Origin: Alphaproteobacteria bacterium | GTDB taxonomy: Bacteria > Pseudomonadota > Alphaproteobacteria > Rhizobiales > Xanthobacteraceae | Reading direction: 5' to 3' | Assembly (NCBI GenBank): GCA_016869215.1 | Contig: VGEP01000016.1 | Span: 1-64,000, forward strand | DNA: 64,000 nt | In this document: in pieces, positions 36,576 to 37,765 of the stretch | Position numbering within the stretch: position 1 is the first letter of the stretch | Layout: the number at the start of each line of letters is the position of its first letter | Made by a program: the position numbers and the translations under genes | The notes under the pieces: model-generated | What the model was told of the DNA's origin: nothing | Databases searched by the model: none | Seen by the model: the letters and a program-made list of their open reading frames with translations, nothing else

Positions 36576-36824
36576 ATGGCCCATGCACAATCCGATACGG
36601 CAATCGACAGGATCACCATCGATCCGGATGTCTGCAACGGCAAGCCTGTGGTCAGGGGCCTGCGCATCACGGTCGAGAGCATTCTGGACTATCTCAGCGC
36701 GGGCGAAGCGCCCGAGACAATCCTGCGCCAGCACCCGATGCTGGAGCCTGAGGACATTTCGGCCTGCCTGGCTTTTGCAAGCCGGCTGATGGGCCGCCGA
36801 TACAGCGTCAAAGAAACGGCCTGA
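36576..36824 (+). CDS. DUF433 antitoxin-like protein
   Basis: This 82-residue DUF433 protein has the family core RITIDPDVCNGKPVVRGLRITVESILDYLSAGEAPETILRQHPMLEPEDISACLAFA, a small winged-helix-like DNA-binding fold. DUF433 genes commonly pair with DUF5615 (PIN-like) genes as putative toxin-antitoxin modules, and such a gene follows with a 1-nt ATGA overlap. It probably represses its own promoter and neutralises the partner. The module sits between metabolic genes next to the structured repeat region, as expected for mobile stress modules. Confidence 0.8.
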   Translation: MAHAQSDTAIDRITIDPDVCNGKPVVRGLRITVESILDYLSAGEAPETILRQHPMLEPEDISACLAFASRLMGRRYSVKETA

Positions 36825-37165
36825 TGGCCCGTTATCTGATCGATGCCAATCTGCCGCGTTGGTTCTCGCCCTGGTCCGGCAGCGACTATGAATTCATCCA
36901 CGATATTGGTCAGGCCTGGACCGACAGCCGAATTTGGCAGTATGCCGCGGCCAACGCGCTGACCATCGTTACGAAAGATGCGGATTTTTCCGACCGCGTT
37001 CTTACCAGTTCCAGCGGACCGCACGTCATTCACATCCGGGTCGGCAATCTCACCATCGGCGACCTTCACCGCTATCTTTCGAACGTCTGGACGGACGTTT
37101 GCCTGGCGAGCGAGAACTGCCGCCTCGTGCAAGTTTACCGGGACCGGATCGAAGCCATCGAGTGA
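36824..37165 (+). CDS. DUF5615 PIN-like toxin candidate
   Basis: This 113-residue protein opens MARYLIDANLPRWFSP and carries acidic positions in LIDANL, HDIGQAW, TIVTKDADFSD, and then HIRVGNLTIGDLHRYL. That is the layout of Mut7-C/PIN-like DUF5615 nucleases (D-x-N and KDxDF motifs). It is translationally coupled to the DUF433 gene through ATGA. By analogy with VapC-like systems it may cut RNA, but toxicity has not been shown for most members. A small hairpin (37164-37178) overlaps its stop. Confidence 0.78.
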   Translation: MARYLIDANLPRWFSPWSGSDYEFIHDIGQAWTDSRIWQYAAANALTIVTKDADFSDRVLTSSSGPHVIHIRVGNLTIGDLHRYLSNVWTDVCLASENCRLVQVYRDRIEAIE

Positions 37166-37318
37166 AAGCCGCGCTTTCGCGCGCCGCAAGCCTTTCAAGG
37201 CAAAGCGGAATAGGTTCGCAGACAAAACTTATCCCCGCTTCTGAATCCGGTCTTACAATTCGCGCATCTTGCCCAGTCGCAGGCGTCGTCGATCGCGGCG
37301 TTCGAGGACAGAGCAAGG

Positions 37319-37344
37319 CGCGGCGGCCACATATTGCCGCCGCG
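37319..37344. repeat. flanking hairpin A of the structured region
   Basis: A perfect 9-bp stem CGCGGCGGC/GCCGCCGCG (37319-37327 with 37336-37344) has the 8-nt AT-rich loop CACATATT. It begins 28 nt upstream of the large element. Confidence 0.7.
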
Positions 37345-37346
37345 GG

Positions 37347-37478
37347 TGGAGCGCCGGGAGGCGCCCAGGGTCCTCTGCGCCGGAGGACTCGTGCGTCTCG
37401 CCAGACGCACGGCCGGTCGCGCCAGACCGGTCGGGGAGCTCCCGACAGTAGCTCCCCGGGCGCCTTCCCGGCGCTCCA
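37347..37478. repeat. compact multi-hairpin element: outer 20-bp stem enclosing four hairpins
   Basis: The outer arms are 37347-37366 and 37458-37478 (20 pairs, one bulged T). They enclose hairpin 1 (37370-37375/37383-37388), hairpin 2 (37391-37398/37403-37410), hairpin 3 (37413-37418/37425-37430) and hairpin 4 (37433-37440/37450-37457). Consecutive hairpins are separated by exactly 2 nt, and hairpin 4 joins the outer stem with no gap, so a five-way junction with almost no unpaired bases is implied. It may be a structured RNA or a DNA-level repeat. The pairing is symmetrical, so the strand is not known. Confidence 0.72.
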
Positions 37479-37479
37479 T

Positions 37480-37496
37480 CCCCTCATGTCGAGGGG
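37480..37496. repeat. flanking hairpin B of the structured region
   Basis: CCCCTC (37480-37485) pairs with GAGGGG (37491-37496) around an ATGTC loop, one base after the closing stem of the large element. Confidence 0.6.
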
Positions 37497-37541
37497 CAAC
37501 GGAGAACAGGGAGACGGGCCAGCCGGGCGCCCGAAAACAAA

Positions 37542-37559
37542 GCTCCGGCCCTGCGGAGC
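37542..37559. repeat. flanking hairpin C of the structured region
   Basis: GCTCCG (37542-37547) pairs with CGGAGC (37554-37559) around GCCCTG. It is weaker and further away than hairpins A and B; it may belong to the same element or be chance in GC-rich DNA. Confidence 0.4.
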
Positions 37560-37765
37560 GTTGGCTTGGAACACAACCGGCAAGAGCATGGAATTTTCAC
37601 GCGCCTCCGGGCGTCATTGCGCCGCAGCGTGCGCGGAGGCGCCGCACGCAGCCATGGCGTCTGCGCATATCTCGCCATGCTAGGTTTCCCGCATTCGCGC
37701 CGGAAACCATCCGGCAGCGGCTTCGCTGTCGCTTAAGCGGGGCGGTTTCGACTGAGGGAGATGAG

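Follow-up and report, generated by a model that had tools for sequence, protein, structure and literature searches.

The hairpin block at positions 37347-37478 of the window (the whole 64,000-nucleotide stretch of Xanthobacteraceae DNA analysed here, from contig VGEP01000016.1) forms a single domain within a larger element that is dispersed in the genome, and, judging from sequence comparison and predicted folding, we assign a probability of roughly 0.8 to 0.85 to the reading that this element belongs to a stand-alone, promoter-driven, multi-copy family of structured non-coding RNA genes. The best reading of the data is that the element represents a mobile, or once mobile, structured RNA gene that is wired to stress responses and would act in trans. 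In the window it forms a unit of about 340 bp on the + strand, from about 37224, where a promoter box and a -10-like site are located, to about 37566, with a predicted RNA of about 300 nt. If the element is transcribed, it would represent a large class of structured RNA that is missing from Rfam and that about one in four of the family's sampled genomes possess, some with dozens of copies, and it would show that apparent repeat DNA can be a regulated and selected family of RNA genes. The operator shared with an orphan DnaA-domain-IV protein, the putative SOS induction and the common loop motif offer concrete handles for experimental tests.

The initial annotation of the block, made from the letters alone, described an outer stem of 20 bp with one bulge that encloses four perfect hairpins of 6, 8, 6 and 8 bp, and our re-examination of the pairing reproduced these coordinates and base pairs exactly. 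The outer arms of this five-way junction, here called P3 (37347-37366 and 37458-37478, + strand, 20 bp with one bulged T), enclose hairpins H1 (37370-37388, 6 bp), H2 (37391-37410, 8 bp), H3 (37413-37430, 6 bp) and H4 (37433-37457, 8 bp); as had been claimed, successive hairpins are separated by 2 nt and none precede the closing arm, and three nucleotides (AGG) absent from the first description precede H1. The predicted fold of the 132 nt has an energy of -107.3 kcal/mol; 200 dinucleotide shuffles of the sequence gave -67.4 (sd 4.0), which corresponds to z = -9.9, and none of them reached the stability of the original. The arrangement is not due to chance, because three other copies occur elsewhere in the window's genome, aligned to a 181-base query over 156-181 bases with identities of 90, 92 and 95%; the same query additionally gave three short partial matches in that genome. 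Among relatives the outer stem is conserved, but neither the sequence nor the number of the inner hairpins is constant: counting hairpins of at least 4 bp, the 78 cores contain 2 to 5 each.

In the sense of the RNA, the order of parts is a promoter-like start, P1, P2, P3, P4, a purine-rich linker, P5 with a pseudoknot, and the conserved 3' end GGAGCGTTGGCT, all on the + strand of the window. The start contains the box ACTTATCCCCGC (37227-37238), a regulated-promoter motif of this lineage, and a -10-like TTACAAT (37253-37259). P1 (37265-37318) is predicted to be a long imperfect hairpin, with its inner stem (37282-37300) in GGCGTCGTCGATCGCGGCG, and P2 (37320-37343) a hairpin. Of 78 copies, 34 have a P2 loop region that fits CCGACAAY; the window copy departs from this motif, with CACATAT. 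Downstream of P3 follow the P4 hairpin CCCCTC-ATGTC-GAGGGG (37480-37496), a purine-rich stretch (37499-37512) for which the majority consensus of the aligned relatives is about CGGAAAAAGGGA, and the P5 and pseudoknot region (37515-37551), in which the loop GCCGG (37522-37526) of the P5 hairpin proper (37515-37533) can pair with CCGGC (37545-37549). The 3' end, recognised in alignments, occupies 37555-37566. When 37258-37570 is folded as a whole, the junction remains unchanged and flanking hairpins are added (-191 kcal/mol, z = -7.1). Positions 37555-37563 of the 3' end can also pair with the 3' arm of P3 (37469-37477), in competition with the 5' arm; the 8 consensus pairs of this alternative are each kept in 37-39 of 39 rows, with none changed on both sides, and could reflect a strand-exchange switch or merely sequence conservation.

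To assess the agreement between structure and sequence among relatives, we collected 120 distinct copies, of which 20 were dropped for a weak orientation score, leaving 100; a further 22 were dropped for redundancy, short flanks, short cores or Ns, leaving 78. Three alignments were used, one of 54 hand-picked rows and two of 39 and 35 rows chosen for recognisable ends or the P2 loop, the window row being added by hand to the last. RNAalifold reported no covarying pairs in the 3' domain and recovered only the competing helix between the 3' arm of P3 and the 3' end, and the pseudoknot was therefore tested by permuting pairing partners among copies. This type of test does not remove relatedness among the copies; within that limit, the pairing of each loop with its own tail scored 13.29, against 10.70 ± 0.26 for shuffled partners (0 of 1000 as high; 68 of 78 copies parsed), and the same procedure gave 0 of 500 for each of the inner and outer stems of P1 (n = 60 of 78), for P4 (n = 76 of 78) and for P2 (n = 34 of 78, 19 distinct pairs). 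In P2, 20 cells were changed on both sides, compared with 6.9 ± 1.9 in shuffles (0 of 500), and two further measures did not exceed the shuffles (pairs with a change, 275 of 500; further types, 241 of 500). The initial annotation had held that homologues without compensatory changes would speak against its proposal; in the part of this comparison that we ran, by permutation of partners, the helices and the pseudoknot covary.

The strand on which the RNA would be read also stands out. The sense strand folds more stably than its complement in 77 of the 78 full-length copies, by a mean of -14.0 kcal/mol, compared with 48 of 77 for the upstream flanks and 59 of 78 for the P3 core alone, and all 78 non-redundant cores have z < -3 (20 shuffles each). 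The inner hairpins differ in the sequence of their stems and often carry a common YCGCA-type loop: [UC]CGC[AC] is present in 122 of 282 loops, against 180 of 2911 in shuffled cores, which indicates that the loop type persists in a large minority of hairpins while the stems change. A protein-coding origin was rejected, core lengths falling into all three classes modulo 3 (34, 25 and 19); 41 of 78 copies do have a sense frame without stops across the RNA, a count of little weight in GC-rich DNA.

These observations bear on a competing explanation, namely that we are looking at a purely DNA-level repeat with no RNA function, such as a non-autonomous transposon or a cluster of REP/BIME-like palindromes. 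The GC-rich palindromes, their dispersed and mostly intergenic placement, the near-identical cores within a genome and the existence of counterpart sites without the element are all what such a repeat would produce. We nevertheless regard it as improbable, since it does not account for the strand asymmetry, the covariation between the P5 loop and its tail, the loop motif that stays common as stems change, or the promoter-type boxes that stand at similar distances across copies while the spacer between them has drifted, and neither terminal inverted repeats (by eye) nor a signal of target-site duplication was found. REP/BIME repeats are short palindromes, single or in pairs, that are tied to a RAYT transposase. 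REPs of the GTAG and CGTC families are, according to PMC3733652, short palindromes of 20-40 bp, and the element resembles them, as well as Br-REP1 and Br-REP2 (PMC5082802), in being a dispersed intergenic palindromic repeat of Bradyrhizobium-type genomes; however, it is a unit of about 340 bp that begins like a promoter and comprises several domains in a set order, a pseudoknot among them, and the consensus sequences of Br-REP1 and Br-REP2 printed in the latter source differ from it.

The structured RNA family that we favour is widespread among relatives of the window's genome (genomes and loci are named below by our own G and L labels). An 18-base pattern of the outer arm, with one mismatch allowed, matches in 11 of 11 genomes of the genus, with 0-1 matches per genome for the reversed control, and 10 of the 11 also yield relatives when searched with a covariance model built on the 3' domain. 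We give the genus count as 10 of 11, because in G004 the arm matches are no better than the reversed control (nearly so in G001 as well) and the covariance model finds none. Of 296 genomes across the family, 79 contain relatives according to the model, and these represent 20 of the 47 genera; for the model counts stricter filters were applied, and no more than 13 places were scored in any genome. Copy number ranges from 1-2 model matches in some genera, several of whose copies have CUCGCAA-like loops in all inner hairpins (by eye), to dozens of arms in G006; the copies occupy unrelated sites, and similarity ends on both sides (by eye). An exact 24-base pattern occurs in 88 stretches of named records. 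The 80 of the 88 that were listed all come from metagenome-assembled genomes, nearly all labelled Hyphomicrobiales, Rhizobiales, Xanthobacteraceae, Bradyrhizobiaceae, Rhodoplanes, Pseudorhodoplanes, Pseudolabrys or Rhodopseudomonas, with a few labelled merely Proteobacteria or Alphaproteobacteria and one Candidatus Marinimicrobia. The vague impression, recorded at the outset, that related hairpin blocks recur in Bradyrhizobium-like genomes thus finds broad support in the named records (Xanthobacteraceae, Bradyrhizobiaceae, Rhodopseudomonas and Pseudolabrys among others) together with the family search. Carriage on plasmids or phages was rejected: viral contigs gave 0 exact matches to the 24-base pattern, and three plasmid queries and one phage query gave no match to the element.

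The elements are mostly intergenic. In 8 of 100 the overlap with a called frame exceeds 50 nt, and the copy in the window is among these eight because of an extended frame of the TAXI-type gene. This gene (Pfam NMT1_3) lies 288 nt downstream on the same strand, and its position had led to the proposal that the block is a riboswitch-like leader acting in cis. Such a leader should be linked in sense to the gene that it controls, but relatives adjoin varied genes at unrelated loci, have a promoter-like start of their own, and, with neighbours called by a simple codon score, have the next downstream gene in sense in 38 of 96 cases and in antisense in 58, convergent placement being the commonest (34 of 82 copies with both neighbours called). 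We reject the leader on this gene context and regard it as extremely improbable. The two other interpretations offered in the initial annotation, a structured non-coding RNA and a dispersed structured repeat, both find support, as two descriptions of a single entity. Just upstream of the window copy, at 36576-37165, is a pair of genes with DUF433 and DUF5615 domains, which we take to resemble a toxin-antitoxin type pair.

Presence and absence of the element can be compared at one locus. One copy in G002 lies in a gap of about 430 bp between flanks that are separated by 10 bp in G006 and 75 bp in G007, both without the element, and in G003 the same gap holds an element of a larger type (type B, described below); exact insertion junctions cannot be placed because the relatives are too diverged. 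The element is like a MITE in that it is short, has no evident gene, is multi-copy and has counterpart sites that lack it. It differs in having no terminal inverted repeats that we could see by eye and no signal of target-site duplication (3.80 against 3.65 ± 0.11, with 48 of 500 controls as high; 51 of 78 copies usable), and a MITE was rejected on these two grounds. In a G006 copy (L093, about 1016-1320, + strand), P3 is interrupted by about 180 bp flanked by the direct repeat CTGCGTCACTG; this interruption is another small insertion.

The promoter boxes differ by lineage, with LexA boxes in two genomes and a TTATCCCCG box in others. The motif GTTCN7GTTC, which we take to be the alphaproteobacterial LexA box, precedes the outer arm by no more than 300 nt in 22 of 100 copies, every one of them from G003 or G006, and is present upstream on the other strand in 10 more (8 of them in G006); in the 300 nt that follow the copies, with both strands considered, it occurs in 1 of 100. 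A more stringent version of the box has 51 sites in G000, G003 and G006; the 30 of these that were examined include elements and also the starts of SOS-like genes, among them a radA-like gene (names by eye), and the three in G000 are not at elements. When 11 copies of G006 are compared, P3 is 97.2% identical and the spacer between the -35 and -10 sites 48.9% (flank baseline 52%), with the LexA box kept in 11 of 11; TTGAC served as anchor, and 13 copies were named, one being set aside for lack of TTGAC and one merged as a duplicate. LexA (SOS) control would probably govern the elements of G003 and G006. The window copy has no LexA box, and a simple sigma-70 scan finds no consensus promoter in it.

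The window's genome contains 11 exact sites of ACTTATCCCCGC, of which 10 were examined and each start an element (by eye); the eleventh lies upstream of a gene, adjacent to mucR, for a DnaA-domain-IV-like protein, a relative of the protein at L238, and the L238 protein, the one submitted to family matching, matches Bac_DnaA_C (PF08299). Small proteins of this kind, related to the helix-turn-helix of DnaA domain IV, are encoded at G000:C74:1353-1673 (L358), L238, L355-L357 and L359, with a TTATCCCCG-type box in front, and orthologs in G002, G005, G007 and G008 are also preceded by a TTATCCCCG box. The ortholog in G097 has the box GGGGATCGCTATCCCC, close to the GGGGATACGAATCCCC of the G097 elements. 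The gene that precedes the DnaA-domain-IV gene of G000 has a ROS_MUCR match at its end (mucR-type), and the sequence before the orthologs of G005, G007, G008 and G097 resembles that of G000 (by eye). No good match to the gene was found in G003 or G006, the genomes with LexA-type elements, and none in G009 or G010 (80% and 88% complete), even though TTATCCCCG elements are present in both. The box sites are not confined to intact elements: 2 of 10 examined in G010 lie away from elements (L233 and L236), and among those of G002 one belongs to a truncated copy (L229) and one stands 43 bp from another (L217/L220). The TTATCCCCG-type box presumably resembles the DnaA box TTATCCACA. From the shared operator, the DnaA-domain-IV-related proteins are candidate regulators of the element, and we consider stress-type regulation of the element promoters probable.

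A structured RNA gene of this kind may work as follows. The element would be transcribed from its own promoter, under LexA in two genomes and, in others including that of the window, under the small DnaA-domain-IV regulator or DnaA itself. The RNA would then act in trans as a rigid, multi-branched scaffold that presents several copies of one YCGCAA-like loop, and these loops may bind or titrate a protein or another RNA. Within genomes the family would spread, its core being kept near-identical by selection or gene conversion. What we tentatively propose is a dispersed chromosomal "RNA-only" cassette that would encode nothing but an ornate RNA, in which the hairpins are interchangeable and for the most part show one kind of loop, whose control switch has been exchanged between LexA and a DnaA-domain-IV regulator sharing its operator, and whose copies across the genome are fired together by DNA damage or replication state. 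A function as sponge or scaffold, presenting loops in trans, is a somewhat doubtful guess guided by the anatomy. Sponge RNAs of the CsrB/RsmZ type consist of repeated hairpins that display a common loop motif, GGA, and bind a partner protein through these loops; the element is similar in its repeated hairpins with a common loop motif but differs in the motif itself, YCGCAA, and in its many gene copies, and the likeness lies in the repetition of a loop motif.

The family could instead be a selfish RNA-encoded mobile element with no function for the host, its RNA serving to propagate the element itself, mobilised in trans by, for example, a host reverse transcriptase or transposase. Copy numbers that vary widely among genomes, the locus at which the element is present or absent, and the lack of any partner gene noticed alongside (on casual inspection) would fit a selfish origin. 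We consider it unlikely, although a serious contender: the promoter is retained, which a retro-copy would lose; spacers and flanks have drifted while the boxes persist, which fits long residence under selection; and none of the plasmid and phage queries carried a copy.

Comparison with Rfam 15 gave only four tRNAs above the gathering cut-off in the window. Six loci with relatives (E up to 10) gave 12 matches, all far below cut-off, and seven further loci (E up to 1) gave only a 16S gene above it. The library presumably includes the GOLLD, ROOL and OLE models, and these had no match from the window or the relatives' loci. We know of no system with the element's combination of features. In the open literature searched, nothing was recognised as this family; it may have been noticed earlier as repeat DNA, and PMC1273637 cites a paper from 2003 that dealt with long intergenic repeats in alphaproteobacteria. 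Large RNAs of unclear role are, as such, nothing unusual. GOLLD, ROOL and OLE (PMC12286853) are likewise large bacterial RNAs with many hairpins, a multi-way junction and an unclear role; the element differs from them in having no Rfam match, in its many chromosomal copies per genome, in its alphaproteobacterial distribution and in its absence from the viral, phage and plasmid queries.

A larger relative of about 500 nt, type B, has a similar 3' half and a big extra domain in place of P2, and, from the parts they have in common, types A and B are inferred to be homologous. Type B elements occur several times in the window's genome and at many sites of G003 and G097 selected by their tails; the type B relatives at L303-L332 (G003, G097 and G000) end in tails like CTGTTTGACAATTGAATC, of which G003 has 33 sites and G097 has 20, and the tail sequence is also found in the 16S rRNA leader (L350 and L352). 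This boxA-like tail after the 3' end suggests another reading, in which the element would carry boxA in order to capture Nus factors, either as a decoy or as a leader. With up to 2 mismatches, the tail follows 18 of 100 copies, compared with 0 in upstream and 0 in reversed controls and 2 of 100 further downstream; element-like sequence lies upstream in 27 of 30 loci selected by their tails (by eye), from which the frequency of the tail cannot be read because the tail itself was used to pick them; and TGTTTGACA is present in the five rRNA leaders that were inspected, at positions -243 to -263. Yet 82 of 100 copies, that of the window included, have no such tail, a single element of G000 has one within 1 mismatch despite several type B elements there, 3 of the 5 rRNA leaders match in the first half only, and the copies read differ from an rRNA leader in that no 16S gene follows them. 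We regard the decoy as quite improbable. At L329 in G097, a lone boxA-like tail directly follows a coding-like region; we saw no element upstream of this tail, which may be a remnant or an independent use of the tail.
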